Shown here: one piece after another, positions 41,585 to 58,032 of the stretch
Layout of the letters: every line of letters begins with the position of its first letter
Position numbering within the stretch: the first letter of the stretch is position 1
Source of the DNA: Nonomuraea soli
GTDB taxonomy: Bacteria; Actinomycetota; Actinomycetes; Streptosporangiales; Streptosporangiaceae
Assembly: GCF_013761175.1 (NCBI RefSeq)
Contig: NZ_JACDUR010000001.1
Location: 930,001-994,000, forward strand
DNA: 64,000 bases
Direction of reading: 5' to 3'
The notes under the pieces: model-generated
What the model was told of the DNA's origin: nothing
Seen by the model: the letters and a program-made list of their open reading frames with translations, nothing else
The model's database searches: none
Program-made: the position numbers and the translations under genes

Positions 41585-43318
41585 ATGACCGAGTGGACGA
41601 TGCGGGAGGACGACCTGGAGGCGGTGGTGCGTCTCGACGCCGCCAGCCGTCCGATGATTGAGGTGCGGCACGCAGGGGTGACCGTCATCCGGCCGTCACG
41701 GCTGGGCCTGCGGACCGCGCACGCCGACCTGACCCGTGACCTGCACGCCAGCGGCCTGTCGGTGCGCCGGGTCGAGGAGGACTACACCACGCTGACCGGC
41801 AAACGACGTGAGCACTCCTACCGGGCGACCGAGTGGACGCTGGCCTTCTCCGAGGGACTCGAGCTCCAGGTGCGGATCGGTGGCGGGGGAGTGGCCTACC
41901 GCTACCGGGTGACCTGGAGCGGCCCGGTGACGGTCTGCGAGGAGGTGTCGGAGTACGTGCTCGACCCCGGCGCCCGCGCGGTGCTCCTGCCGTACGAGAA
42001 CGGGCGGTGCGACTACGAGGAGATCCACCACCACACCACCGCCGGCCTGGCCGAGCCGATCCTCTACGGCTACCCCTCGCTCTTCCAGGTGGGCGAGAGC
42101 TGGGTGCTGCTGACCGAGTCGGGGCTCGACAGCGGGTACGCCGGGTCCCGGCTGGCCTTCAACGGCCGCGAGTTCCAGCTCGACCTGCCCGACCCGTACG
42201 TCGTCGCGGCCAGCCCGCTCGTCACCCCGTGGCGCACGATGGTCATCGGATCTCTGGCCGACGTCGTCGAGAGCGACCTGGTGACCTCGCTGGCCCCGCC
42301 CAGCCGCGTCGCCGACACCTCCTGGATCAGGCCGGGCGCCGCCGCCTGGTCGTGGTGGTCGGACGGGCCCTCCTGCCGGGACCTGGAGGCCCAGCGGGGC
42401 TGGGTGGACTTCGCCGCCGAGATGGGCTGGCCGTACCTGCTGGTCGACGCCGGCTGGAACAAGGAGTGGATGCCCGAGCTGATCGCCTACGCGGCGTCGA
42501 GGAACGTCGGGATCTGGTTGTGGTCGCACTGGCAGCACGTCGACACCGAGCTCGAGCACCGCGAGAAGCTGGCGCTCTGGAAGAGCTGGGGCGCGGCCGG
42601 CGTGAAGATCGACTTCACCGAGTCCGACGGCCAGGACCGCATGCGCTGGTTCGACTCCATCCTGGCCGCCACCGCCCGCCTGGAACTCATGGTGGTCTTC
42701 CACGGCGGCACCATCCCGCGCGGCACCGAACGCACCTGGCCGCACTTCATGACCGCCGAGGCGGTCAAGGGCGCCGAGTGGATCAAACCCAAGCCCGGAA
42801 AGGAGCCGCTCTACCAGCCCTCCCACTACCTGTCGCTGGCCTTCACCCGCAACGTGCAGGGGCCGATGGACTTCACCCCCTGCACCTTCACCGCGGTCCG
42901 CAGCATCTCGGCCGCCTTCGAGCTGGCCCTGTCGGTCATCTTCGAGTCCGGCGTCCAGCACTTCGCCGACGGCATGGACGCCTACCGCTCACGCCCCGAG
43001 GCCCGGCGCCTGCTCGCCGAGGTGCCGGTGGCCTGGGACGAGACCCTGATGCTGTCCGGCGACCCGGCCGACCACATCGTGCTCGCCCGGCGCGACGGCT
43101 CCGACTGGTACGTCGGGGCTGGCTTCTCGGGCGAGCCCCGCACGTTCACCCTGTCCTTCGACTTCCTGCGCGAGGGGGAGTGGCGGGCCGAGCTGTACCG
43201 CGACGCTCCCGGCGACCGGATCGTCCACGAGGTCGTCACCGTGGGGCCGGCGGGCAAGCTCGCCGTCCCCGTCGGCCACAACGGCGGCTTCACCCTGCAC
43301 CTGAGGAGAACTTCATGA
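41585..43318 (+). CDS. Glycoside hydrolase family 97
   Basis: The 577-residue enzyme has the GH97 layout: an N-terminal beta-sandwich, a catalytic barrel and a C-terminal beta-domain. Landmarks are RPGAAAWSWWSDGPSCRDLE, WPYLLVDAGWNKEWM, AAGVKIDFTESDGQDRMRWF and HFMTAEAVKGAEWIKPKPGK. In retaining GH97 alpha-galactosidases an Asp after the fifth strand is the nucleophile, and the Asp in VKIDF fits that place, so alpha-galactosidase is favoured over alpha-glucosidase. No signal peptide is seen. The stop overlaps the lyase start by 4 bp. Confidence 0.85.
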   Translation: MTEWTMREDDLEAVVRLDAASRPMIEVRHAGVTVIRPSRLGLRTAHADLTRDLHASGLSVRRVEEDYTTLTGKRREHSYRATEWTLAFSEGLELQVRIGGGGVAYRYRVTWSGPVTVCEEVSEYVLDPGARAVLLPYENGRCDYEEIHHHTTAGLAEPILYGYPSLFQVGESWVLLTESGLDSGYAGSRLAFNGREFQLDLPDPYVVAASPLVTPWRTMVIGSLADVVESDLVTSLAPPSRVADTSWIRPGAAAWSWWSDGPSCRDLEAQRGWVDFAAEMGWPYLLVDAGWNKEWMPELIAYAASRNVGIWLWSHWQHVDTELEHREKLALWKSWGAAGVKIDFTESDGQDRMRWFDSILAATARLELMVVFHGGTIPRGTERTWPHFMTAEAVKGAEWIKPKPGKEPLYQPSHYLSLAFTRNVQGPMDFTPCTFTAVRSISAAFELALSVIFESGVQHFADGMDAYRSRPEARRLLAEVPVAWDETLMLSGDPADHIVLARRDGSDWYVGAGFSGEPRTFTLSFDFLREGEWRAELYRDAPGDRIVHEVVTVGPAGKLAVPVGHNGGFTLHLRRTS

Positions 43319-44577
43319 AGTACGGCTTACGCCTGGCCGCCGTGCTGGCGGCGCTCGCGCTGTCCGGCCCGCTCACCCCCGCTCTCGCCGCGGCGGACCC
43401 GCTCACCCCGGCCGCAGACCCGGGCTCGTCCGGCTCGTCGGGTTCGTCGGGCTCGTCCGGCTCGTCCGGCGACTGGCGGTTGCGCTGGCATCCCAGCCCC
43501 TCCCGTGACGGGCTCAAGGCCTTCGAGGCCATGGAGGACGACCGCCGCGGCTCCCACCCCGAAGGCTTCCCGCACGTGTATCCCGAAGGCCACGCCTACA
43601 GGTTCACCATGCACCTGGAGGATCGCGACGGCTCCGACCGCCAGCGCAACGAGGTGCGGGGCATGCGCGACCGCGAGGGCCGCGCACTGGAGATCCGCAA
43701 GGACGAGGTCTGGCGCCTGACCTGGGACATGTACCTGCCCGACACCCTCGACGCCACCTCGAACTTCACCCACATCTGGCAGGTCAAGACCTCCGACACC
43801 AGTACGCCGGTGATGCAGCTGAGCCTGCCGGTCAAGAGCGGGGTGCCGTCGATCGAGGCACGCTACTGGACGCTCGCCGACAACCAGGTGCACCCCTTCG
43901 CCGCAACGCCCCTGGAGCCGCTGCAGAACCGGTGGATCACCACCACCGTGGAGTGGAAGTCCTCCGACGCCGGGTACATGCGGTGGATCCTCTCCGAGGG
44001 CCGCAGGACCCTGGTCGACCAGCGCGTGGACGGCATCGACCTGCACTGGAGCGAGGAGCAGTACAACCGGCCCAAGTGGGGCCTGTATCGCAGCATCCGC
44101 AGCGCCGGGCTGCAGGACACCTTCATGCTGATCAGGAACTTCAAGGCCTGGCAGCTCGGCCCGGCCACCCCGCCCGTCCAGCTGCCGCCCCCGGACCGTT
44201 CGCCAGGCGCCTACGAGGCCGAGCGGACCGGCAACATCATGGAGGGTGCCGCGGAGCCGGTGTACTGCCGCATCTGCTCGGGCGGGCTGAAGACCATCCT
44301 GATCGGCGGCAACCACTACGACTACACGGTGGTCAAGGGCATCTGGTCCGACACGACGGCGACCAGGGAGATGACCGTGCACGCGATCGTCAACGGCACC
44401 CAGTCCTTCCGGATCAGTGTCAACGGCGCGGACTCCGTCGAGGTGCCCATGACGGGCACCCCTGACAAGATCACCACGGCCACCGTTCAGGTGCCTCTGA
44501 TCAACGGCGTCAACCAGATCAGGTTCTTCAACCTGACGGCCCGCACTCCCGAGCTCGACAAGATCGTCATCAGGTAG
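43315..44577 (+). CDS. Secreted polysaccharide lyase with carbohydrate-binding tail
   Basis: The 420-residue exported protein begins with a signal peptide (YGLRLAAVLAALALSGPLTP, ending ALAAADP) and a Gly-Ser linker. A heparin-lyase-I/polysaccharide-lyase-like jelly roll follows, with QRNEVRGMRDREGRALEIRK, NFTHIWQVKTSDTSTPVMQL and RYWTLADNQVHPF. The C-terminal 120 residues, from AYEAERTGNIMEGAAEPVYC, resemble a CBM35/CBM6-type module. It would cut uronic-acid polysaccharide outside the cell. The exact lyase family and substrate are not certain. Confidence 0.78.
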   Translation: MKYGLRLAAVLAALALSGPLTPALAAADPLTPAADPGSSGSSGSSGSSGSSGDWRLRWHPSPSRDGLKAFEAMEDDRRGSHPEGFPHVYPEGHAYRFTMHLEDRDGSDRQRNEVRGMRDREGRALEIRKDEVWRLTWDMYLPDTLDATSNFTHIWQVKTSDTSTPVMQLSLPVKSGVPSIEARYWTLADNQVHPFAATPLEPLQNRWITTTVEWKSSDAGYMRWILSEGRRTLVDQRVDGIDLHWSEEQYNRPKWGLYRSIRSAGLQDTFMLIRNFKAWQLGPATPPVQLPPPDRSPGAYEAERTGNIMEGAAEPVYCRICSGGLKTILIGGNHYDYTVVKGIWSDTTATREMTVHAIVNGTQSFRISVNGADSVEVPMTGTPDKITTATVQVPLINGVNQIRFFNLTARTPELDKIVIR

Positions 44578-44818
44578 GGAATCCTGCAGTCAGCCGGATG
44601 ACCTCACTCGCCGCCGGGGGCGCGCCGGCGCTCCCGGCGGCCCCGGCCACGCCCGCCGGGGCCACCACGGAAGATTCACCGAACTCCAGCGAGGGCCACC
44701 GCCGCCGGTCGCAGGCGCTGCTGTTCGACGGGCACCAGGAGATCGACCCGCACCACGTGGCGGCCAGTACCAGGCCCAGTTCCTCGACCGGCTGCGCGAT
44801 GGGCCCAGGTGAGCGGGC
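44578..44818. other. Gap between convergent lyase and GH36 genes
   Basis: No gene is recognised in these 241 bases. Short open frames exist on both strands (for example 44598-44864) but show no known motif and no ribosome binding site. Confidence 0.4.
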
Positions 44819-46645
44819 TCAGGTGAGCTCCAGCAGTCCTCCGACCGGGACCTCGAGGACGTGAACACCGGGGCGCAGGCGCAGAGCCCGCGCCCCGGTC
44901 CGTTCGCCCCGGCAGTCCACGACGGTGGCCGTGGCCGTACGGGGAGCCGGGACGGTCAGGACGACGGCGGTCGAGGCGTCGGCGTTGGCCAGCAGCAGGC
45001 GGCCGGTGGCCGGAACGGGCACCGGCAGCGGGCCGTAGCGCGCCGTCACGGTCGTGCCGTCGCCCTCCGCGCTCACCAGGGGATAGCCCAGATCGGGCCG
45101 GAAGGGACGCAGGCGCCCGTGCTGGAGCACATCGACGTGGCGGCGGCAGAAGTCCAGCCAGAAGCGCAGCACGGCCAGCCGGTCCTGGTCCAGAGCGGTC
45201 AGGTCGACGGAGATCTGCGGGACCGAGAAGAGCGTGTTGATCAGCTGGACGGCGATCCGCTCGGGGCTCTCGTCCCGGTGCCACATCATCATGTCGGCGT
45301 GTACGGCCAGCGGCCCGGCGACCAGCCGCAGGTCGATCGTGCGCTGGCGGTTGTGGGCCAGGCCGAGCGGACAGTCGGAGGCGCGGATCATCGTGGCGTA
45401 CGGCCACAGGGCGGGGCTGACGTACGGCTGGCGCAGCTCGACGAGCGCGCCCTCGGGCAGGCGGGCGCCCAGCTCGGCCAGCAGGCGGCGGACGCCCTCC
45501 GTGACGCTCTCGCAGTCGGCGCCCGCGGCAGGGGCGGGCGCGTCGGGGACGTGGAACTGGTCGATGAAGTCGATCTTCAGGCCGTCGGCGCCCCACTGGG
45601 TCACCGCCTTGGCCAGGCTGCCGGCCAGCAGGTCGCGGATGTGCGGGTGGCGCGGGTCGACGATCGCCGCGTCCATGTGCTCCTTGAAGGCCAGCGTGTA
45701 CGGCTGCACGCGCTCCCACAGGGTGGTGCGGCGGCCGACGAAGGGCAGGGCGTACCACAGCAGGTAGGCGAGTCCTAGGGCGCGGACCTTGGCGACATGG
45801 GTAGCCATGTCCGGAAATGTCGTGCGTGACGGTTCCCATTCGCCGACGAACGCGTACCCGCGGCCCCGGTCGTCGCTGTGCCACCCGTCGTCCACGATGA
45901 CCGCCTCGCAGCCCAGCTCCGCCGCCGCGGCCGCCTGCCGTTCGACCCCCTCCGCGTCGACGTGCTGCTGCATCGCGTACCAGGTGGAGTAGGCGGGCAG
46001 ACGCGCCGGGCGCGGAACCTCGCGCGTGCCGTACTCCCGCCCCCACCAGCGAGCGACGCCGGCGAGGGTGTCGGCGAAGTGCCGCCCGCTCAGGTCCAGC
46101 CGCAGGCGCAAGGGGCGGTCGGGCCCGGCCTCGTGCTCGGCCCAGAAGCCGAAGTCGCCGGTCTCCTCGACCACGCCGGTGCGGATGCGCACCTCCCGCA
46201 CCACCTCCGCGACCGCGTAGGTGACCAGCGACCTGTCGTCCGCTCCCACCAGGGCGCCGACCGGGGCGCCCTTCTCCAGGGAACTGGTGCGGGGACGGCG
46301 CCAGAAGGGCGGCAGGCTGCGGTGCTCGCCGCTGTCGGGCACCCAGAAGGCCGTCACGCCGACGCAGGGCACCTGCCAGGCGACCCTCACCACCTGGGGC
46401 CGCGCCGGGACGATCTCGACCTCCCAGACCCCGGCGGGCGCCGCCCGGTCCGCCTCGCGGCCGTCCGCCCGGTCCGCCTCGCATTCGTCCGCCCGGTCCA
46501 CCGCCAGCGCCCGGACCGCCGCCGTGTGCTCACCCGCCGAGACCGTGACGTCCAGTCCACCCACCCGTAACCGCGTGATCGCCACCGGCCCGGACGCGGC
46601 GTCGTGCGGCTGCCAGATCCCCGTCGCCGTCATCCCCGTCGTCAC
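44819..46645 (-). CDS. GH36-type alpha-galactosidase
   Basis: The 608-residue enzyme has an N-terminal beta-domain and a catalytic barrel of clan GH-D. LPAYSTWYAMQQHVDAEGVE, CEAVIVDDGWHSDDRGRGYA, WGADGLKIDFIDQF (Asp nucleophile) and ATMIRASDCPLGLAHN (Asp acid/base) are clear. No signal peptide is present, so the substrate is an imported galactoside or a related sugar. The GTG start at 46645 directly abuts the ROK stop; ATG 46633 is an alternative. The N-terminal region holds an odd acidic repeat (ADRADECEADRADGREADR). Confidence 0.86.
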   Translation of the reverse strand: MTTGMTATGIWQPHDAASGPVAITRLRVGGLDVTVSAGEHTAAVRALAVDRADECEADRADGREADRAAPAGVWEVEIVPARPQVVRVAWQVPCVGVTAFWVPDSGEHRSLPPFWRRPRTSSLEKGAPVGALVGADDRSLVTYAVAEVVREVRIRTGVVEETGDFGFWAEHEAGPDRPLRLRLDLSGRHFADTLAGVARWWGREYGTREVPRPARLPAYSTWYAMQQHVDAEGVERQAAAAAELGCEAVIVDDGWHSDDRGRGYAFVGEWEPSRTTFPDMATHVAKVRALGLAYLLWYALPFVGRRTTLWERVQPYTLAFKEHMDAAIVDPRHPHIRDLLAGSLAKAVTQWGADGLKIDFIDQFHVPDAPAPAAGADCESVTEGVRRLLAELGARLPEGALVELRQPYVSPALWPYATMIRASDCPLGLAHNRQRTIDLRLVAGPLAVHADMMMWHRDESPERIAVQLINTLFSVPQISVDLTALDQDRLAVLRFWLDFCRRHVDVLQHGRLRPFRPDLGYPLVSAEGDGTTVTARYGPLPVPVPATGRLLLANADASTAVVLTVPAPRTATATVVDCRGERTGARALRLRPGVHVLEVPVGGLLELT

Positions 46646-47827
46646 CTATCTCTCCCTGAGGGTGAAGAGCGTCTTGATGGCGATGGCCGCCGCGCCACGC
46701 GCCCAGTGCTCGAACGTCCGCGGACGCAGCACCACCTCGCAGCCGGCCGCCGCCCCGAACGCCTGCCCGGCGAAGGTCTGCCTGAGCTGCCCCTCCAGCA
46801 GGCCGTACGAGGCGAGCCCGGCCACGTCGCCGGTGACGACGATCCGGGCGGGACCGAAGAGGTTGGCCATCGCCGCCATGGCCAGCCCGATGGCGTGCCC
46901 CGCTCGCGCGAAGACCTCGCGCGCCCGCTCGTCGCCGTCGTGCGCGGCCTGAATGGCCTCGTCGATCGTCATGCCGGGCCGGTTCGTCGCGGCCCTGACG
47001 GCCGCCAGAAGCGGCCCGGTGCCGGCGATGGCCTCGACGCAGCCGTGGCCGCCACAGTGGCAGGGCGGAGCCTCCCCGCCGACCGGGATGTGGCCGATCT
47101 CTCCGGCCACGCCGTGCGCGCCCACCACCACCCGGCCGTCGATGACCAGCCCGCAGCCGATGCCGATGCCGATGGTGACCAGGGCGAAGTGCGACAGCCC
47201 GATGCCCTCGCCGAACCACTGCTCGGCGGCGGTCAGCGCCTTGACGTCGTTCTCGATGGTGACGACCAGGCCCGTGGCCTGGGCCGCGTACGTCGCCAGG
47301 GGCACCTGGCGCCAGCCCAGGAAGGGCGAGTAGCGCACCATCCCCGTGTCGTGGTCGACGTCGCCCGAGATCGACAGCCCGAGATGATGGCAGCGCTCGC
47401 CGTACTCCGGCCGTCGCGCGCGCAGCCCGGCCACCAGCGCGGCCAGGTCGGCCAGCACCGACTCCACGCGGGCGTCGGCCAGGGGACGGTGGTCGGTCTC
47501 CAGCACCTGCGCGCGCAGGTCGGTGAGCACGCCGATCAGGCCGTCGTCGGTGATCTTGACGCCGATGAAGTACTCACGCTCGGGCCGGATCGCCAGCGGG
47601 CTGGCCGGACGCCCGGCGCCGGGGCCCGTGTGCTCGGTGGCCTCCATCTCCTCCAGATAGCCCGCCTCGATGAAGGGCCGGGCGGCCTTGGTGACCGCGG
47701 CGGACGACAGGCCCGTCCGCTTGGCTATCTCGACGCGCGAGACCGGGCCCTGGGTGAGGACCATGGTGAAGACCGTGGCCGCCGCCGGGCTGGTCAGGGG
47801 CTCGGGGCGGCGCGTCAGAGCTGGCAT
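46646..47827 (-). CDS. ROK-family transcriptional repressor
   Basis: The 393-residue protein has an N-terminal winged helix (VSRVEIAKRTGLSSAAVTKA near residue 30) and a ROK sugar-kinase-like domain. The latter has GLVVTIENDVKALTAAEQWF, VTIGIGIGCGLVIDGRVVVG and the zinc-binding PCHCGGHGCVEA. GEIGHIPVGG is also typical. It probably senses a sugar from this locus and represses it. Its promoter (TACCAT, 6 nt before ATG) is leaderless and carries the same 26-bp element found between the fucosidase and GH97 genes, so it is likely autoregulated. Confidence 0.92.
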   Translation of the reverse strand: MPALTRRPEPLTSPAAATVFTMVLTQGPVSRVEIAKRTGLSSAAVTKAARPFIEAGYLEEMEATEHTGPGAGRPASPLAIRPEREYFIGVKITDDGLIGVLTDLRAQVLETDHRPLADARVESVLADLAALVAGLRARRPEYGERCHHLGLSISGDVDHDTGMVRYSPFLGWRQVPLATYAAQATGLVVTIENDVKALTAAEQWFGEGIGLSHFALVTIGIGIGCGLVIDGRVVVGAHGVAGEIGHIPVGGEAPPCHCGGHGCVEAIAGTGPLLAAVRAATNRPGMTIDEAIQAAHDGDERAREVFARAGHAIGLAMAAMANLFGPARIVVTGDVAGLASYGLLEGQLRQTFAGQAFGAAAGCEVVLRPRTFEHWARGAAAIAIKTLFTLRER

Positions 47828-48051: not shown

Positions 48052-48107
48052 TCGAACCCATGTTCGGCGTTTCAGTTGACACTGGCGGTGATCGAAATTA
48101 TGTTCGA
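48052..48107 (+). promoter_or_regulatory. SOS-type promoter with two LexA boxes
   Basis: TCGAACCCATGTTCGG (48052-48067) and TCGAAATTATGTTCGA (48092-48107) each match the actinobacterial LexA consensus TCGAAC-N4-GTTCGA in 11 of 12 positions. A consensus-like promoter, TTGACA (48076-48081), 17 bp, TATGTT (48099-48104), lies between and over them, with its -10 inside the second box. It points towards the HEPN gene; the predicted leader is about 260 nt. Confidence 0.8.
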
Positions 48108-48369
48108 TGTAGCGATGTGAGGCTCGCGGCTCACGTCGAGAGCCTGGTCGGGGGTGTCACTTTCCCCAAGTGGCGCCCCGGGCCGGGCTCGCTCGGGCGA
48201 AGGGCGCGTCCTCGTCGTCGGCGGAGACGAGTGGGCGTGTCCCGGCCGGACGGGGAGAGGGGAAGCTCCTCGTCCGGCCGCCCGGCGGAAATGTCGGTGG
48301 GGTCTGCAATCGTTGGCTTCACCGGTGGAAACGCTGGGAACGGCCATGACCCCAAGGAGGCTGGCAGAG

Positions 48370-48816
48370 ATGACCCCGCGGCGAGACGACGCGCACGGGC
48401 CCCGGCTGTCGACCGCGGTCCGGGCACACCTCAACGACTCACGTTCCTGCCTGGCGGAAGCGGCCACGGCCCGCACTCCGGCGACCCGATACCAGTCGGC
48501 GCACATGGCGGCCCTGCGTGCGGCCGCGGCCATCCTGGCCGCCCGTCCCCTGCCCACCCAGGGCCGGCGCCGGCGCCTGCGCAGCGCCTGGGACCAACTG
48601 CCCGAGGCCGAGCCCCAGCTGGCCGAGTGGGCGGCGCTGTTCAGGGCCAGCGCCACCAAGCGCGCCGAGGTCGAGGCGGGCATCGTCCGCAACGTCTCGG
48701 CGTCCGACGCCGACGAGCTCCTGGCCGAGGCCGAGACCTTCGTGACCCGAGTGGAGGAGCTTCTGGGCGTCCCCGCCCAGCCCCTTCTACCCCTCGAGGT
48801 GCCCTTGGCCGGTTGA
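48370..48816 (+). CDS. SAV_6107-family HEPN-domain protein
   Basis: The 148-residue all-helical protein matches the SAV_6107 HEPN family: SRSCLAEAATARTPATRYQS, then AHMAALRAAAAILAARPLP, WDQLPEAEPQLAEWAALFRA, and ADELLAEAETFVTRVEELLG at the end. An R-x4-H pattern (Arg40 to His45) resembles the HEPN ribonuclease motif. ATG 48370 has AAGGAGG 9 nt before it; longer frames begin within the leader. It lies downstream of a promoter with two LexA boxes, which suggests induction by DNA damage. The function is unknown. Confidence 0.83.
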   Translation: MTPRRDDAHGPRLSTAVRAHLNDSRSCLAEAATARTPATRYQSAHMAALRAAAAILAARPLPTQGRRRRLRSAWDQLPEAEPQLAEWAALFRASATKRAEVEAGIVRNVSASDADELLAEAETFVTRVEELLGVPAQPLLPLEVPLAG

Positions 48817-48913: not shown

Positions 48914-49588
48914 CTCCTCAGCGTGAGAGCGCCCTCTTGTGACCGGGTTGGAGCTCGCAGGTAGCGACCAACCGACTGTCCGGGGCGTCGTGGAAAACCG
49001 GGGAAGTTTTCCTCACGCGTGAGGGACCCGGGCGTCGCCCTCCCTCTGACCACGTCGTCGCCGAAGCGGCTCACCATGGCCAGGGTGATGTCCGCGCAGG
49101 ACACCCGACGAGGTGATGCTCAGGTCGCGTTCCGTGAGCGGGCCCATCAGCAGTCGGCCGTTCAGGAACTGCGACGACCTTCCTCGGCCTCGTGGCGGAG
49201 CCGTACCCCTCAGGCCCTTGAGCGCCGTGGTCAGCAGGGCCACCAGGCGATGACGCAGCCGGGCCGTCGAAGCGGAAGCGACGTCGTCCCGTGACGGCTG
49301 TCCCGGCATCCCTGGTGTAGAGCTCCATGCATGGGCCTGTCCGCTGCCGTGGATCGTCCAGGCCTGCTCGATCTACAACCCATCGCCATCAGCGTGTCGA
49401 CAAAGCCCTCGGTGCCATCCGCCCACAGGGGCGGTGGACGGTCGTCGTGCGTTCGGCCGCAGCGGTGAGAAAGCAGGACGCGGCCAGGATCGACTTGGAG
49501 CCCGGGATGGGGGATGAGAGGCACGATTGACCCCACGAAGGGCGATCTTTCTCGCTTTGCCGGGGATGTCTTTGCAGGTAGAGCGATA
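48914..49588. other. Gene-poor, probably degraded stretch
   Basis: No intact gene is recognised. On the minus strand, frames with coding-like pieces (VASASTARLRHRLVALLTTA; LNGRLLMGPLTERDLSITSS; DITLAMVSRFGDDVVRG) lie in different phases, as in a decayed gene. A 12-bp palindrome, CTCACGCGTGAG, is at 49012-49023. Confidence 0.35.
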
Positions 49589-49614
49589 TTTCCTGACAGC
49601 CAGGAAAATACGCT
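49589..49614 (+). promoter_or_regulatory. Inverted repeat and -10 box before the Pro/Gly-rich gene
   Basis: TTTCCTG-ACAGC-CAGGAAA (49589-49607) is a perfect 7-bp inverted repeat. It is followed at once by TACGCT (49609-49614), a -10 box 7 nt before ATG 49622. The layout suggests a leaderless, repressible promoter. Confidence 0.5.
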
Positions 49615-49621
49615 CATCTCT

Positions 49622-50929
49622 ATGAGCAGCGATCCGCGCCCTGCGTCCCGCCCTTCTCAGCCCGGCTCGCCCTACGGCGGCGTCGCCTCCACCGGCAGCC
49701 CACCTGAACTGGGTGCAGCCCCTTACGGGGGTGTCGGGGCGGGTGAGCGCCCTTCGCGGGCTTCTGAGCGGCCTTCAGGGGGCTTGGGGCAGGACGGCGC
49801 TCTCAGATCCGGGGGTCCAGCCGGGAACCCCGTAGCGGGGGCTCCAGGGCCAGAGACGGGCGGTGAGAGCGTGACAGGCGCGGGGCCCGGCGCCCAGGCA
49901 TCCGGCGGTCCGGCATCCGGCGCCCAGGCATCCGGCGCCCAGGCATCCGGCGGTCCGGCATCCGGCGGTCCGCCATCCGGCCCCCCGGCGTCCGGGGGTC
50001 CCGCTTCCGGCGCCCAGGCACCCGGCGCTCTGGCGTCCGGTGATCCCGCGTCCGGCGGTTCGGCGCTGGGCGGTCCGTCGCCCGGTGATTCGACGCTCAG
50101 TCGTCCCGCTGCTCCGGACCCGGCGACGCGGCCCACCTTCCAACCGCCACCACCTGCCGGTGCCATGCCTTCGGTCGCTCCCGGAGCTGCCGGGGGCGGT
50201 CACGCGGGTGCCCCACCGCCGCCCACCTCGGGTGCAGGGGCTCCAGCCCCCGCCCCAGCGTCTGGCATGGCACCCGGCCCCGCGTCCGATCCGCCGCCCG
50301 GTCCGCCGCCCGGTCCGCCGCTCAGTCCGCCACCCGGCCGAGCGCCTGGCATGGCGTCCGGCTCAGTGCCCGGCTCAGTGCCCGGCCCGCCGCCCGGCCC
50401 GCCTCCTGGTGTGGCGTCGAGTTCAGCGCCTGGCATGGCACCTGGCCCAGTGTCCGGTCCGCCGCCCGGTATGGCGTCCGGGGCGGCGACCGGGCAGGTG
50501 GCCAAGGTGGGCATCGTGGCCGCGGTGGCGTTGGCGATCACGGCGCTGCTGCCGTGGGTCTCGATCGACTTCCTGGTCTCGACGTCGATCGCCGGGGTGA
50601 GGTCACCGGAAGGCAAGTTCGTCCTGCTGTTCGGCGTGGCGGCCGTGGTGCTGGCGGCGTTGTGGCTGACCAGGCGGCAGGTGGCCTTCCTGTACGGCAC
50701 GGCGGCGGCGGGAGTGCTTGCCGTACTGACACTGGTCATCTTCGCGGCCCGCATCGGGTCGTCCGTCGAGGACGCGCTTCCACCGGGCGGGGTCGGCGAC
50801 GAGCTGGGCCGGTTGGCCAGGGAGGCGGTGGGCCTTGACTTCGGGTGGTACCTGGCCATGCTCGCCGCCTTGGCGCTGGTCGGCGTCGCCGCCTACGGCT
50901 GGTGGTCGAGCCGCAAGGAACGCAGCTGA
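49622..50929 (+). CDS. Pro/Gly/Ala/Ser-rich membrane protein
   Basis: The 435-residue product has about 290 residues of low-complexity sequence (SGGPAS, PPPGPPPG and GMAPGP-like repeats) followed by a conserved-looking C-terminal membrane part with four helices: VGIVAAVALAITALLPWVSI, FVLLFGVAAVVLAALWLT, FLYGTAAAGVLAVLTLVIFA and WYLAMLAALALVGVAAYGWW. The cytoplasmic or wall-facing tail may be a spacer or interaction surface. ATG 49622 is chosen for its -10 box at 49609; an open frame continues upstream to 49514. No family is recognised. Confidence 0.65.
   Translation: MSSDPRPASRPSQPGSPYGGVASTGSPPELGAAPYGGVGAGERPSRASERPSGGLGQDGALRSGGPAGNPVAGAPGPETGGESVTGAGPGAQASGGPASGAQASGAQASGGPASGGPPSGPPASGGPASGAQAPGALASGDPASGGSALGGPSPGDSTLSRPAAPDPATRPTFQPPPPAGAMPSVAPGAAGGGHAGAPPPPTSGAGAPAPAPASGMAPGPASDPPPGPPPGPPLSPPPGRAPGMASGSVPGSVPGPPPGPPPGVASSSAPGMAPGPVSGPPPGMASGAATGQVAKVGIVAAVALAITALLPWVSIDFLVSTSIAGVRSPEGKFVLLFGVAAVVLAALWLTRRQVAFLYGTAAAGVLAVLTLVIFAARIGSSVEDALPPGGVGDELGRLAREAVGLDFGWYLAMLAALALVGVAAYGWWSSRKERS
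49891..50065 (+). repeat. Degenerate minisatellite in the Pro/Gly-rich gene
   Basis: GCATCCGGCG-type units of 12 to 15 bp (GCATCCGGCGGTCC, GCATCCGGCGCCCAG) recur many times. All keep the frame and encode ASGGP and ASGAQ. Copy number may vary between strains. Confidence 0.8.
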
Positions 50930-51771: not shown

Positions 51772-52266
51772 TCAGAACGACTCGACCGCGCGGCGGGCCT
51801 CGGCGTCGAGTACGCCCCAGCTGATGAGCTCCTCGGTCAGCTCGCTGGGCGACTTGTCGTAAATGACGGCCAGGGAGCGAAGGTCCTCCTGCCGGATCGA
51901 CAGGACCTTCCCGTTGTAGTCACCGCGCTGCGACTGGATCGTGGCCGCGTACCGGGCCAGGGCCCCGGCCTTCTCCTTCGGCAGCTGAGCAAGGCGCTCA
52001 AGGTCGATCACAAGCTTGGGCGTCGGCCCGAGCGGCGACGGCGCGGCACCGCCGGGCAGCAGCTCGGAAACAGGAACCCCGTAGAAGTCGGCAAGCTCGG
52101 CCAGCTTCTGCACGGTGACCGCACGGTCGCCGCGCTCGTAGGAACCCACGACCACGGCCTTCCATCGGCCACGCGACTTCTCTTCGACTCCGTGCAGGGA
52201 CAGGCCCTGCTGGGTGCGGATGGCGCGGAGTCGAGCACCCAGCGACTTTGCGTACTCAGACGGCAT
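51772..52266 (-). CDS. bldD: Developmental regulator BldD
   Basis: BldD represses sporulation genes during vegetative growth when dimerised by cyclic-di-GMP. The 164-residue protein starts SEYAKSLGARLRAIRTQQGL and has the XRE helix-turn-helix with SLHGVEEKSRGRWKAVVVGS and YERGDRAVTVQKLAELADFY, nearly as in Streptomyces. The C-terminal c-di-GMP motif RGD-x8-RQED is intact (RGDYNGKVLSIRQED). A strong terminator follows. Upstream, a BldD-like box overlaps a good promoter, indicating autoregulation. Confidence 0.97.
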   Translation of the reverse strand: MPSEYAKSLGARLRAIRTQQGLSLHGVEEKSRGRWKAVVVGSYERGDRAVTVQKLAELADFYGVPVSELLPGGAAPSPLGPTPKLVIDLERLAQLPKEKAGALARYAATIQSQRGDYNGKVLSIRQEDLRSLAVIYDKSPSELTEELISWGVLDAEARRAVESF

Positions 52267-52454: not shown

Positions 52455-52537
52455 GCTGATTGGAAAAAAGATGCCGAATCCGGTCCGGCGGGATGTGCCT
52501 CATATGTCCCAACGACACCACCTGCACCACTACGTCG

Positions 52538-53413
52538 TCATTGTTTGCCAGGCTGTCTAGTGAGGATCATCACAGGACGCTGAGCGGCCTTGATGATTTT
52601 CAGCGAGGTGTCCCCGAGGAAGACGCGGCGCAGGGGACCGGTGTTACTGGACGCGCAGATGATCAGCTCGCCCGGCAGCCACTCACACGAGTCGAGCCCC
52701 TGCTTGACCGAGCCGCCCTCCAGCATCTCCACCTCGACCTGGATACGCCGCCGCTGGCCGCGCGCGGCCGCCTTCAGGTCGGCGATCGCCTGTTCGCGCA
52801 GGCTCTCCAGCATCTCCCGCTCGATCTTGGCCGTCCGGCCGGAGGAGACGACGAGAGTGACCAGCCGGAGCGGTACGTCGAGCAGGACGGCGGCCCGCGC
52901 GGCTGCCTTGACCGCCCCGTCCGCGCTCGGCCCGCGCCGGTAGGCCAGGGTCAGCCGCTCGAACTCCGGCGGCGGCGCGTCGCCGTACCCTCGCGGCGCC
53001 AGCAGGACCGGCACCGAGGAGGAGTGCAGCAGCTGGTCGGCGGTGCTGCCCAGGCCGATGCGCCCCCTGGCGCCGCCGGGGGCCGATCCGATGACCACCA
53101 CGTCGGCGTCCTGCTTGCGCGCGAGCTCGACGAGCCCGCGCCCGCTGCCCTTGTGGGAGCCGACGATGTACTCGGCCTCGGGCCCGGCCAGCTCGCGCGC
53201 CTGCTCCAGCGTGGCCTCGGCCTGCTCGCGCAGGTAGCCGAGCCACGCGCCCTCGTCGGCCCGGGCGGGGCCGGGAGGCTGCCACCGCGGCGGCTGCACG
53301 ACGGCGACGCTGAGCGCCGCCCGCGCCTGCCTGGCCAGGAGTACGGCCAGCGCCAGCCCGTCCCTGCCGCGCGACTCCGGGATGAACCCGTTCAGCACTT
53401 TGTCGATCTTCAT
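52538..53413 (-). CDS. Universal stress protein with two UspA domains
   Basis: The 291-residue protein is a tandem UspA protein. The first domain ends in the ATP-binding pattern VVIGSAPGGARGRIGLGSTA, followed by DQLLHSSSVPVLLAPRGYG. The second ends LIICASSNTGPLRRVFLGDT and SLKIIKAAQRPVMILTRQ. ATG 53413 overlaps the permease stop by 4 bp, making it the last gene of the arginine deiminase operon. Two-domain Usp proteins are often induced by oxygen limitation in actinobacteria, which suits this setting. Confidence 0.9.
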   Translation of the reverse strand: MKIDKVLNGFIPESRGRDGLALAVLLARQARAALSVAVVQPPRWQPPGPARADEGAWLGYLREQAEATLEQARELAGPEAEYIVGSHKGSGRGLVELARKQDADVVVIGSAPGGARGRIGLGSTADQLLHSSSVPVLLAPRGYGDAPPPEFERLTLAYRRGPSADGAVKAAARAAVLLDVPLRLVTLVVSSGRTAKIEREMLESLREQAIADLKAAARGQRRRIQVEVEMLEGGSVKQGLDSCEWLPGELIICASSNTGPLRRVFLGDTSLKIIKAAQRPVMILTRQPGKQ

Positions 53414-54822
53414 GCCAGCCTCGAATGGCGGTAGCCGTACAGGAAGTAGGCCAGCAGCCCGATCGCCATCCAGATCAGGAACGCCAGCCAGGTGACGCCC
53501 GCCAGGCCCGCCATCACCAGCACGCAGAAGATCACGCCGAGGATCGGCGTGATCGGGAACAGCGGGGTGCGGAAGGAGCGCGGCAGGTCGGGACGGCTGT
53601 AGCGGAGCACCAGCACGCCGACGTTGACGATCGCGAAGGCGAACAGGGTGCCGATGCTGGTGGCCTCGGCGAGCTGCCCGAGCGGGATGAGGCCGGCCAG
53701 GATCGCCACGAACACGCACACGATGATGGTGTTGGCCACCGGTACCTGGCGGCGCGGGTTGACCTTCTGGAACACCTTGGGCAGCAGCCCGTCGCGCGAC
53801 ATCGCGAACAGGATGCGGGTCTGGCCGTACAGCACGGTCAGCACGACGCTGGCGATGGCGATGACCGCCCCGAAGGAGACGACCAGGCCGGGCCAGGTCT
53901 GCCCGGTGGCCTGGTTGACGATCAGGGCGAGGCTGGCCTCGGTGCTGTCGGGGTCGAACTCGGTCCACGGCATGGCGCCGATCGCGGCGATCGCGACCAG
54001 CACGTAGATCGCGGTCACGATGACGAGGGAGAAGATGATGGCCAGCGGCAGGTCGCGCCTGGGGTTCTTGGCCTCTTCACCCGCCGTGGACGCGGCGTCG
54101 AAGCCGATGTAGGAGAAGAACACCTGCGAGGCCGCGGCGGTCACGCCCGCGATGCCCATCGGGGCGAAGGGCGTGAAGTTGCCCGACTGGAAGGCGGTGA
54201 AGGCGACGATGCAGAAGAACGCCAGCACCGCGATCTTGACGAGAACGAAGATCGCGTTGGCCGTGGCCGACTCCGACGAGCCGCGCAGCAGCAGCCAGGT
54301 CGCCAGCACCACGATGAGGATGGCGGTCAGGTTGACGACGCCGCCCTGGTCGCCGGGGGAGTGGGTGATGGAGGCCGGCAGGCTCCAGCCGAACATGCCC
54401 TCCAGGAACGTGTTGAGGTACTCGCCCCAGCCGACCGCCACCGCGGCCACCGACACGGCGTACTCCAGCATCAGGCACCAGCCGCAGATCCAGGCGACGA
54501 TCTCGCCCATGGTCGCGTAGGCGTAGGAGTAGGACGAGCCGGAGACCGGGATGGTGCCGGCCAGTTCGGCGTAGGACAGGGCCGAGAAGAGGGCGGTGAC
54601 GGCCGCCAGCACGAACGCCAGCACCACCGCCGGTCCGGCCTTCGGCACCGCCTGGCCGAGGATGACGAAGATGCCGGTGCCGAGGGTGGCGCCCACGCTG
54701 AAGAGCGTGAGCGACCACAGCGACATGGTGCGGCGCAGCTCGCCGCCCTCGCCCTGGCCTCCCTCGGCCACGATCTGGTCGGTCGGTTTGATGCGGAACA
54801 GCCGCTGCGCCAAGGTCGACAT
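53410..54822 (-). CDS. APC-family amino acid permease
   Basis: The 470-residue transporter has about 12 membrane helices. TLFSVGATLGTGIFVILGQA is the typical first-helix GTGIF signature, and FSYIGFDAASTAGEEAKNPR is the sixth-helix/loop motif of cationic amino acid transporters. It ends WMAIGLLAYFLYGYRHSRLA. The ATG overlaps the arcC stop by 1 bp. Being in the arc operon but distinct from arcD, it may import arginine or another amino acid, or export a product such as ornithine. Confidence 0.88.
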   Translation of the reverse strand: MSTLAQRLFRIKPTDQIVAEGGQGEGGELRRTMSLWSLTLFSVGATLGTGIFVILGQAVPKAGPAVVLAFVLAAVTALFSALSYAELAGTIPVSGSSYSYAYATMGEIVAWICGWCLMLEYAVSVAAVAVGWGEYLNTFLEGMFGWSLPASITHSPGDQGGVVNLTAILIVVLATWLLLRGSSESATANAIFVLVKIAVLAFFCIVAFTAFQSGNFTPFAPMGIAGVTAAASQVFFSYIGFDAASTAGEEAKNPRRDLPLAIIFSLVIVTAIYVLVAIAAIGAMPWTEFDPDSTEASLALIVNQATGQTWPGLVVSFGAVIAIASVVLTVLYGQTRILFAMSRDGLLPKVFQKVNPRRQVPVANTIIVCVFVAILAGLIPLGQLAEATSIGTLFAFAIVNVGVLVLRYSRPDLPRSFRTPLFPITPILGVIFCVLVMAGLAGVTWLAFLIWMAIGLLAYFLYGYRHSRLA

Positions 54823-55757
54823 CAGAGCGTGCTCTCCAGGGGCCAGGTGGCATTCGGTGTGACGATGGTTCCCGCCGTGCCGTCGAGAATGTCCATGGCC
54901 TCGTCGAGCTTGCCGACGGCGGCCATGTCGCCGGTCGTCTCCACGAAACGGCAGATCGCCTCGACCTTCGGGCCCATGGAGCCGGCCGGGAAGTCGATGG
55001 AGCGCAGTTCGTGGGGCGTGGTGTGGCTGATCTCGCTCTGCTGCGCCGTCCCGAAGTCGCGCATGATGCGCGGCACGTCGGTCAGGATCAGGAAGGCGTC
55101 GCACTCCAGCGCCTCGGCCAGCATCGAACCGGTCAGGTCCTTGTCGATGACCGCCTCGACGCCCGACAGGCGGCCGTTCTCGTCGCGGATGACCGGCACG
55201 CCGCCGCCTCCCGCGCAGACCACGGTCACGCCGTCGCGCACCAGCTTGCGGATCAGCCGGGTCTCGACGACCCGCTGCGGCTTGGGCGAGGGCACGACGC
55301 GCCGCCAGTACTGGCCGTCGGGCTTGACGGTCCAGCCGTTCTCCTTGGCCAGCTTCTGGGCCTCGGCCTGGTCGTAGACCTGCCCGACGAACTTGGTCGG
55401 GTTCTCGAAGGCCGGGTCGACCGCCGAGACCAGGGTCTGCGTGATGATCGACAGCACCTGGCGGCCGGGCAGGGCGTTCTGCAGGGCCTGGAGCATCCAG
55501 TACCCGATCATGCCCTGCGTCTCGGCGCCGAGCGTGTCGAACGGGTAGGGCCTGGTCAGGTTGGGGTCGCCGGCGCTCTCCAGCGCCAGGACCCCCACCT
55601 GGGGGCCGTTGCCGTGCGTGATGATCAGCTCGTGCTTCTCGGCGACCTGGGCCAGCGTCTTGACCGCCGTCTGCACGTTGGCGATCTGGATGTCGGCGTC
55701 GGGGGTGTCGCCGCGTTGCAGCAGCGCGTTGCCCCCGAGCGCGACCAGGACTCTCAT
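54822..55757 (-). CDS. arcC: Carbamate kinase
   Basis: ArcC converts carbamoyl phosphate and ADP to ATP, the energy-yielding last step of the arginine deiminase route. The 311-residue protein has [17 protein letters not shown] at the start, ELIITHGNGPQVGVLALESA, VTVVCAGGGGVPVIRDENGR, DKDLTGSMLAEALECDAFLI and a C-terminal GSMGPKVEAICRFVE. It overlaps the neighbouring genes on both sides by 1 bp. Confidence 0.95.
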   Translation of the reverse strand: MRVLVALGGNALLQRGDTPDADIQIANVQTAVKTLAQVAEKHELIITHGNGPQVGVLALESAGDPNLTRPYPFDTLGAETQGMIGYWMLQALQNALPGRQVLSIITQTLVSAVDPAFENPTKFVGQVYDQAEAQKLAKENGWTVKPDGQYWRRVVPSPKPQRVVETRLIRKLVRDGVTVVCAGGGGVPVIRDENGRLSGVEAVIDKDLTGSMLAEALECDAFLILTDVPRIMRDFGTAQQSEISHTTPHELRSIDFPAGSMGPKVEAICRFVETTGDMAAVGKLDEAMDILDGTAGTIVTPNATWPLESTL

Positions 55758-56764
55758 CACTGGTCCCCGAGGGTGGCGACCATGATGGCCTTGATGGTGT
55801 GCATGCGGTTCTCGGCCTCGTCGAAGACGATCGAGCGCGGCGACTCGAAGACGCTCTCGGTGACCTCGAGCGCGTCGAGCCCGGTCTTCTCGTAGATGTC
55901 CTCGCCGACCTTGGTGCCGCGGTTGTGGAAGGCCGGCAGGCAGTGCATGAACTTCACGTTCTGGTTGCCGGTGGCCTTCACCACCTTGTCGTTGATCTGG
56001 TACGGCTTGAGCAGCTTGATTCGTTCGTCCCACACCTCCTTGGGCTCTCCCATGGAGACCCACACGTCGGTGTAGAGAAAGTCGACGCCCTTGACGCCCT
56101 TGGCGACGTCGTCGGTGATCGTGACGGTCGCGCCGGTCTGCTTGGCCAGGTCCTTGGCGGGCTTGACCACCATCTTGGAGTCGGGCCACAGCGACTTGGG
56201 AGCGACGAGCCGCACGTCCATGCCGAACATCGCGCCGGTGACCAGCAGCGAGTTGCCCATGTTGTTGCGGGCGTCGCCGAGGTAGGCGAAGGAGATCTCC
56301 GACAGCGGCTTGTCGCTGTGCTCCTGCATGGTGAGCATGTCGGCGAGCATCTGCGTCGGGTGCCACTCGTCGGTCAGGCCGTTCCACACCGGGACTCCGG
56401 AGTAGGCGGCCAGCTCCTCGACGTTGGCCTGGGCGCTGCCGCGGTACTCGATGCCGTCGAACATGCGGCCCAGTACGCGGGCTGTGTCCCTGACGGACTC
56501 CTTGTGGCCCATCTGCGAGCCCGAGGGGTCCAGGTAGGTGACGTGCGCGCCCTGGTCGTGCGCGGCGACCTCGAACGCGCAGCGGGTGCGCGTGGAGCTC
56601 TTCTCGAAGATGAGCGCGACGTTCTTGCCCTTGAGGCGCTGGCGCTCGACCCCCGCGTACTTGGCCGCCTTCAGGTCGGCCGAGAGCTTCAGCAGGAAGC
56701 CGAACTCCTGGGGCGTGAAGTCCAGCTCCTTGAGGAAGCTGCGCCCCTTGAGGTTGAAAGCCAT
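55757..56764 (-). CDS. arcB: Ornithine carbamoyltransferase (catabolic)
   Basis: In this operon the enzyme phosphorolyses citrulline to ornithine and carbamoyl phosphate. The 335-residue protein has the carbamoyl-phosphate motif [43 protein letters not shown] and the ornithine-side [12 protein letters not shown]. Its length fits catabolic ArcB rather than the usually shorter anabolic ArgF. GGGGGAAA precedes the ATG at 56764, and 23 bp separate it from arcA. Confidence 0.93.
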
Positions 56765-56787
56765 GACGTTTCCCCCGAAAGTCGTGT

Positions 56788-58032
56788 CTAGATGCCGTCG
56801 CGCTCGAGCGGGCAGCTCATGCAGCGGGGTCCGCCCCGGCCGCGTCCCAGCTCGCTGCCCCGGATGGTGATGACCTCGATGCCCTCGGAGCGCAGGAAGT
56901 TGTTGGTCGTGGTGTTGCGCTCGTAGGCGACCACCACGCCGGGCTCGATGGCCAGGACGTTGCAGCCGTCGTCCCACTGCTCGCGTTCGGCGGCGTAGAC
57001 GTCCTGGGTCGCGGTGAGGACCTTGATGTCGTCGAGGTCGAGCGCCCTGGCGATGGCCTTGTGCATGTCTTCCGGAGCGTGGTCGGTGACCTTCAGCTCC
57101 TTGTCGTTGTCGCCCGGCTCGATCGTGTAGGACGGCAGCATGCCCAGACCGGCGTACTTGGTGAAGACGCCCACGTCCACGTTGGTCATGACCGTGTCGA
57201 GGTGCATGAACGCCCGCGCCTTCGGCATGTTCAGCGCCACGATCTTCTTGGCGGCCCCGTTCGAGAACAGGTTGTGTGCGAGCATCTCCACGGCCTGCGG
57301 CTGGGTGCGCTCGCTCATGCCGATCAGGACGGCGCCGCGGCCGATGACCAGGACGTCGCCGCCCTCGATCGTGGCGGGCGCGGCGGCCTGGCCGGGCATC
57401 CACACGTGGAAGCCGCCCGACTGCGGCCGGCCGTAGCCGTCGGCGAACAGCGGGTGGTAGCGGTAGATCGCCTCCATGTTGACGGTCTCCCGCATCCGCG
57501 CCTTCTTCTTCATGGCGTTGATGGAGACCCCGTTGTACACCCAGCACGAGGTGTCGCGGGTGAACAGGTGGTTGGGCAGCGGCGGCAGGATGAAGTCGTC
57601 CATCTCCAGCACGCGGAAGGCGACGGACTTGGGGTTGCACCCCATCTCCATGAGCTCGCGCTTGGTGATGCCGCCGGTCAGGTACGGCTGGAGCGTGGCC
57701 GAGTCCATCGAGTCGAGCGTGTTGCGGATGGCGTCGGTGGCCATCGGCCCGAACCAGCGGTCGTCGATGATCCCGTCGAGGATGTGCTTGCGCGCCTCGG
57801 GGATGTCGGTCGACTGCTGGAGCAGCTCGGCCAGCATGTAGACGGTGATGCCGCGGTCGCGCAGCACCTGCTGCCACTCCTCGTGCTCCTCCAGGGCGCG
57901 CTGAACCCACAGCACGTCGTCGAAGAGGAACTCGTCCTTGTTGGTCGGGGTGAGGCGCTTCAGGGCCAGCTCAGGCTTGTGCAGCATGACCTGGTAGAGC
58001 TTGCCTACCTCGGAATCCACGTGAAATGTCAT
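56788..58032 (-). CDS. arcA: Arginine deiminase
   Basis: ArcA hydrolyses arginine to citrulline and ammonia. The 414-residue protein starts [20 protein letters not shown] and has the guanidino-hydrolase active site: [57 protein letters not shown], and the catalytic cysteine in [18 protein letters not shown] at the end. Its start overlaps the arcD stop by 4 bp. Confidence 0.97.

Follow-up and report, generated by a model that had tools for sequence, protein, structure and literature searches.

A predicted damage-controlled locus of Nonomuraea soli with a conserved structured RNA and a SAV_6107-family HEPN gene

Several described systems resemble parts of the locus reported here. The HEPN-M (SAV_6107) family, PF18726, comprises proteins with a HEPN fold and no canonical Rx4-6H motif, and its published table entry gives no domain architecture or operon (Anantharaman et al., 2013, PMC3710099). 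In Corynebacterium glutamicum, cg2381 is recorded as a 'conserved hypothetical protein' of the LexA regulon with M 3.86 under ciprofloxacin (PMC5055667). Actinobacterial recA carries a LexA box followed by a RecA-NDp motif, and joint control by LexA and PafBC is possible for recA, uvrA and uvrC (PMC8223512); the motif itself is tied to PafBC and present at Streptomyces recA. ImuA-ImuB-DnaE2 mutasome operons have a LexA box at their head. We analyzed a locus in a 64,000-nucleotide stretch of Nonomuraea soli (contig NZ_JACDUR010000001.1, positions 930,001 to 994,000; hereafter the window) where a SAV_6107-family HEPN gene follows LexA boxes, a structured RNA and a RecA-NDp-type element (Table 1).

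The HEPN protein of this locus is like the published family over the full domain, in its fold and in lacking a canonical Rx4-6H, and to a family listed without operon context we can now add LexA/PafBC-type promoters and DnaE2/DinB operons. Like actinobacterial recA, and like the recA of this genome (motif 66 bp after the start of the box), the locus has a LexA box and then a RecA-NDp motif; unlike recA, it has two LexA boxes and a conserved structured RNA ahead of the RecA-NDp element. HEPN precedes an ImuB-like gene and DnaE2 in three sampled relatives (L124, L125 and L147), whereas the HEPN gene of the window stands alone, unlike mutasome operons. The gene cg2381 is three gene numbers from mraZ (cg2378), fitting the HEPN-DUF3040-MraZ order of two of our loci (L152 and L153), and the C. 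glutamicum genome matched PF18726 as a control; on this gene order and match, cg2381 is a probable relative of the SAV_6107 HEPN proteins. The family and a LexA link in one species are therefore already known or implied. Our searches of the open-licence PMC literature, which included PMC6789036, returned no description of the class-wide link to LexA/PafBC control and polymerase operons, of the RNA, or of HEPN as a mutasome component.

With somewhat more confidence than doubt, we favor a damage-induced locus with two outputs, in which LexA- and PafBC-type promoters drive an RNA and a HEPN protein that is likely a non-catalytic accessory of translesion synthesis. The first promoter, P1, would be shut by LexA at two boxes, and removal of LexA would yield a folded RNA ending in hairpin D, while P1 transcripts that read on past hairpin D would also carry the HEPN gene. 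A second promoter, P2, just after hairpin D, would produce a short-leader HEPN mRNA through a LexA-independent damage response, as the recA of this genome appears to be built. The HEPN protein would be a helical accessory rather than a nuclease, acting with or near DnaE2/ImuB or DinB.

The initial annotation, made from the letters of the window, had described two LexA boxes flanking and overlapping a TTGACA-17-TATGTT promoter, with the -10 element within the second box, and we find exactly this arrangement. Box counts were of little help in judging it: the window contains 4 boxes with at most 2 mismatches where 2.0 are expected, as many as 17 of 100 shuffles reach, and the whole genome contains 46 with at most 1 mismatch, compared with 39 in a backward control. 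Since neither count is significant, we turned to conservation across relatives. PF18726 searches covered 54 genus, 396 phylum, 120 family and 393 class genomes, from each of which the best-scoring 30 loci were taken, with overlaps; together with 40 stretches picked for diversity, and after dropping second copies per genome, 128 loci were kept. Every one of the 31 genus loci has the P1 layout (two boxes with at most 2 mismatches 39-40 bp apart, TTGAC, a 17- or 18-bp spacer and TAYGTT), and in 22 of the 30 family loci TTGAC and TAYGTT accompany a pair of boxes spaced 39-41 bp apart. Boxes with no more than 1 mismatch lie upstream of the HEPN domain in 31/31 genus loci, 24/30 family loci and 28/42 loci from other families, 24 of these last being perfect. 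Control segments of 600 bp from the same loci contained such a box in 0/58 (genus), 0/60 (family), 0/57 (group f3, probably Streptomyces) and 1/345 (other) cases. The predicted LexA site thus both overlaps a promoter and is kept at orthologous loci, a conservation that strongly supports the SOS control originally proposed. Among 14 other box loci fetched from this genome, 3 precede the classical SOS genes lexA, recA and dnaE2; at 5 more, a scan of the proteins returned either no family or something other than an SOS gene; 6 lay outside the scan.

Although it saw P1 correctly, the initial annotation did not pick up P2 or the structured RNA. We scored P2 on a RecA-NDp consensus taken to be TTGTCRGTG-N8-TANNNT, and on that consensus, allowing two mismatches, a motif of the PafBC regulon stands ahead of the HEPN gene. 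Its 9-mer (at most 1 mismatch) is present in HEPN loci of the genus (31/31), the family (22/30) and f3 (25/25), compared with 1/59, 4/60 and 1/60 of the respective control segments, and the motif occurs 52 times genome-wide against 5 in a backward control. Two damage regulators probably act on the HEPN gene, and the comparative record makes damage regulation of the locus, in the form of predicted LexA/PafBC control, close to certain.

The region between the two promoters is predicted to encode a structured RNA. The segment from box 2 to the start codon (48104-48372, 269 nt) has a predicted fold of -164 kcal/mol (z -7.3). Alignments of the genus and of the family show the leader to be conserved, and single-base insertions and deletions among the genus sequences argue against its encoding a conserved peptide. 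One DNA alignment (A4) did not line up hairpin A correctly across genus and family, so the covariation count was restricted to the family rows. The resulting alignment (A6) has 22 family rows, leaves out L094 (short) and L079 (close to L071), and was drawn from a set limited to family loci with a box of at most 1 mismatch, which excluded six. Over hairpins A and D of these 22 leaders, pairing is present in 94.3% of cells and 11 pairs are changed on both sides; shuffles average 5.1 such pairs, with 0 of 500 reaching 11, and slid versions give 2-6. Double changes occur at 8 of the 10 pairs of hairpin A, and the loops of A and D hardly vary. The genus alignment alone has only 4 pairs with double changes. 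Judged by this covariation, the predicted RNA is real as a conserved structure. One genus member (L022:956-1251) has hairpin D as an imperfect tandem duplicate. Rfam returned only sub-threshold matches, of which we took mir-3156, mir-3132 and gabT to be chance; Scr3202 (RF02833), a small RNA (sRNA), gave a weak full-length match from 48105, but at 26.6 bits this is well below the gathering score of 52 and membership was not accepted.

The RNA is widespread in the family and usually accompanies HEPN. A covariance model, R1, hit 79 of 120 family genomes once each (in the window genome at 48208-48279, model positions 47-122 only), and in 73 of the 79 cases a HEPN gene follows 124-461 bp downstream in the same orientation. 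A pattern scan for hairpin D found 107 loci in 84,980 species genomes. In the 350 bp upstream of the hairpin, all 107 carry a LexA box with no more than 1 mismatch, a perfect one in 10 cases; the pattern itself did not include the letters of the box, although the hairpins used to design it had been found downstream of boxes. Many of the 107 genomes were already in the earlier sets, including at least 5 of 6 genomes without HEPN discussed below, so that the scan widens the set without being fully independent. The pattern did not constrain pair 13-24 of hairpin D, which among the 107 is AU 79 times, GC 14 times, CG 4 times and UU 10 times. We take the hairpin loci to belong to Streptosporangiales genera or to metagenome-assembled genomes (MAGs); two of the MAGs are named only to class or phylum. 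Outside the family, the exact hairpin loop with its stem was found in 0/29 and 0/57 loci (overlapping sets) and R1 gave weak matches only (best 28.9 bits, L147), with the reverse strand of those stretches also matching weakly. Viral contigs gave 0 hits with the hairpin pattern.

This close association with HEPN could mean that the structured RNA is solely a cis-acting 5' leader of the HEPN gene, an attenuator or a translational control, which we regard as a serious possibility though not the favored one. Besides the 73 of 79 R1 hits upstream of HEPN, it would account for the HEPN match within 900 bp downstream of hairpin D at 92 of the 102 loci with enough sequence, and for three loci (L206-L208) where HEPN starts 33-38 nt after hairpin D and must be read from P1, since no RecA-NDp motif is present. 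It does not account for loci where a LexA box and hairpin D occur without HEPN. Six R1 hits are in genomes without a HEPN match, and in all six a LexA box precedes the hairpin (3 perfect, 3 with one mismatch), while the hairpin is followed, by eye, by a terminator-like repeat (5 of 6) and by a convergent bldD. HEPN is likewise missing at 10 of the 102 hairpin loci, which are from five Nocardiopsis, two Streptomonospora, Thermobifida fusca, a Nocardiopsaceae isolate and a MAG; this set shares at least five members with the previous one. All 10 have a convergent bldD downstream, as do 78 of the 107 hairpin loci overall (bldD being outside the available stretch in 27 and placed otherwise in 2). 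The persistence of box and hairpin without HEPN suggests that the RNA may act in trans, the leader role being the alternative.

Gene order around the HEPN relatives points to translesion polymerases. Among the 40 stretches picked for diversity, 21 encode DnaE2 on the same strand within 1 kb downstream of HEPN, all with an upstream DUF6504-like hit that is weak in some, and 3 more (L124, L125 and L147) have DnaE2 past an ImuB-like IMS gene, for a total of 24; DinB is downstream in another 4. A polymerase following HEPN in 28 of 40 loci counts against the view, unlikely in our judgment, that HEPN is a cell-division damage checkpoint or an RNA-binding regulator and not a polymerase partner. That view draws on the order HEPN-DUF3040-MraZ-MraW in four loci (L148, L150, L152 and L153) and on the ciprofloxacin response, where mraZ mRNA falls while cg2381 rises, but a DinB-DUF3040 block can explain the mraZ link. 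Binding of nucleic acids has been proposed for HEPN domains without conserved charged residues (PMC3710099); the SAV_6107 family keeps charged residues. Other neighbors recur as well: a methyltransferase gene follows HEPN in 25/25 f3 loci, and in two f94 genomes (L126 and L127), whose stretches show no polymerase, a PAC2-family gene follows at about +500 from the HEPN domain. As the HEPN gene of the window is not beside a polymerase, any partnership there must be in trans, and the fact that the separated gene keeps its own damage promoters suggests that induction serves HEPN itself. The protein is most likely a non-catalytic accessory of translesion synthesis.

The identification of the downstream gene as a HEPN gene is borne out by a full-length profile match (HEPN_SAV_6107, PF18726; 112.5 bits against a cut-off of 27.2; positions 1-98 of 98), and the protein has the helical-bundle fold of the superfamily; fold matches that were weak or missing were not used as evidence. 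Its nearest named relatives are from Nonomuraea. Public records give several of the relatives the name 'chromosome segregation protein SMC', apparently an annotation error for a protein of 148 aa. Within the genus the gene is core (53/54 genomes, the miss being a 63%-complete genome and one genome having two copies), and PF18726 was matched in 238 of 393 sampled class genomes.

The initial annotation had taken R40 and H45 to resemble the HEPN ribonuclease motif and had suggested an SOS-induced effector that could cleave RNA or arrest growth, perhaps in defence. The R40-x4-H45 string is indeed present and conserved, with R40 kept in 127/128 sequences and H45 in 120/128 (61 of the 128 come from the genus and family of the window), but it sits on helix 2, away from the column of the HEPN ribonuclease motif; H45 is moreover replaced by Y in 7 and Q in 1 sequence, all 8 among the 42 from other families. 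In a profile alignment to 2hsb, the canonical Rx4-6H column falls on R98-AEV-E102, an R-x3-E without His (KRAAAEAG opposite LREESDYG), so that the ribonuclease motif is absent from its canonical position. The commonest string at this column is RAAAEAG (77/128), and an Rx4-6H string occurs anywhere after residue 90 in 7/128 sequences. The published table also lists the family as lacking Rx4-6H (PMC3710099). Growth arrest by RNA cleavage is further at odds with a gene that is core in the genus and whose recurrent neighbors elsewhere are DnaE2 and DinB, and the six scanned window neighbors include no MNT gene that would indicate a HEPN-MNT toxin-antitoxin pair, a scan that did not extend to the relatives. 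PADLOC gave only weak matches (best E 0.0023), leaving a defence role unsupported for a gene that is core in the genus. The toxin or defence view loses most of its support, and we consider a ribonuclease acting through R40 and H45 improbable, with some room left for cleavage through other residues. Least probable of all is a reading of the conserved inverted repeats as protein-binding sites in DNA instead of RNA structure: the RNA is a prediction from sequence and hairpin D abuts the P2 -35 region, but the loops are conserved while the stems covary (8/10 pairs of hairpin A; pair 13-24 of D) and hairpin D persists at loci without P2.

A fuller version of the two-output reading, which we offer only tentatively, would have the RNA as a new Streptosporangiales SOS sRNA that acts in trans through its conserved purine loop AGGGGAAG and is retained where HEPN has been lost or is lacking, and SAV_6107 HEPN proteins as a new non-catalytic subunit of the error-prone (DnaE2/DinB) repair machinery of actinobacteria, under joint LexA/PafBC control.

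A number of observations weigh against a two-output damage locus with a non-catalytic HEPN protein. P2 departs from the consensus we assume by 1 mismatch in the 9-mer and 1 in the -10, and in other families the 9-mer is found in 9/42 loci against 38/456 controls. The f3 group has a LexA box of at most 1 mismatch in 0/25 HEPN loci, and because the box is weak there, the PafBC-type element seems to carry control. HEPN goes unmentioned in the main text of a Streptomyces venezuelae LexA study (PMC9380542). No polymerase was seen in the stretch at 12 of 40 loci, and the dnaE2 of this genome is on another contig (C5), preceded by a box of its own and, by eye, a small DUF6504-like open reading frame (ORF), with HEPN absent from the interval. 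R1 gave no hit in 20 of 93 family genomes with HEPN, and HEPN was not matched in 27 of 120 family genomes or in the listed genomes of one genus (f4 g4); the listed f1 g291 genomes likewise have none. Finally, R40, H45, R98 and E102 are all strongly conserved, and other active-site residues are allowed in HEPN families without the canonical motif (PMC3710099).

Table 1. Positions of the features of the locus and of bldD in the window.
Feature	Position	Strand	Remark
LexA box 1 TCGAACCCATGTTCGG	48052..48067	+	upstream of -35; 1 mismatch to TCGAACN4GTTCGA
P1 -35 TTGACA	48076..48081	+	
LexA box 2 TCGAAATTATGTTCGA	48092..48107	+	overlaps P1 -10; 1 mismatch to TCGAACN4GTTCGA
P1 -10 TATGTT	48099..48104	+	inside box 2, 17 bp after -35
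Predicted structured RNA of P1 transcript (SOS leader or sRNA)	48108..48279	+	putative start about 48110
Hairpin A GTGAGGCTCGCGGCTCAC, loop GCTCGCGG	48117..48134	+	loop ACTCGCGG in most family rows
Hairpin B	48140..48190	+	in genus; absent from other family leaders aligned
Hairpin C core CCTCGTCGTCGGCGGAGACGAG	48210..48231	+	
Hairpin D, 14-bp stem, near-invariant loop AGGGGAAG	48244..48279	+	signature of the RNA
P2 motif ATGTCGGTG-N8-AATCGT	48291..48313	+	RecA-NDp/PafBC-type; 57-79 bp before start codon
Ribosome binding site AAGGAGG	48354..48360	+	
SAV_6107-family HEPN gene	48370..48816	+	148 aa, stop included; ATG 48370
Codons R40 to H45	48487..48504	+	helix 2; motif named in the initial annotation
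Codons R98 to E102	48661..48675	+	HEPN Rx4-6H motif column; end of helix 82-102
bldD homologue	51772..52266	-	convergent neighbor of RNA/HEPN locus

In the window, HEPN is alone between a ROK/melibiase/GH97 group and bldD, and the six neighbors scanned are ROK, melibiase-like, GH97, BldD and Usp proteins and one without a family. The GH97, melibiase-like and ROK genes to the left of the HEPN locus (41585-47827) form a sugar-utilization group. Between HEPN and bldD is a long low-complexity ORF rich in Pro, Gly, Ala and Ser (49514-50926, +) with no Pfam family. On the other side of bldD (about 52500-57900, -), the scanned Usp-domain protein is accompanied by ORFs that by eye are an APC-type permease, carbamate kinase-like and ornithine carbamoyltransferase-like; this stretch looks like an arginine deiminase cluster.

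The R-x4-H case illustrates how a motif string misleads when its place in the fold is unchecked. The locus offers a damage-controlled structured RNA, predicted from comparison, that has no Rfam family at threshold and can be recognized by a LexA box together with the loop AGGGGAAG. Natural loci with and without HEPN, Thermobifida fusca among the latter, make the roles of RNA and protein separable. For the SAV_6107 family, whose function is unknown, the promoters and neighbors described here suggest a connection with error-prone polymerases and with the response to DNA damage, and a role in damage-induced mutagenesis becomes testable.
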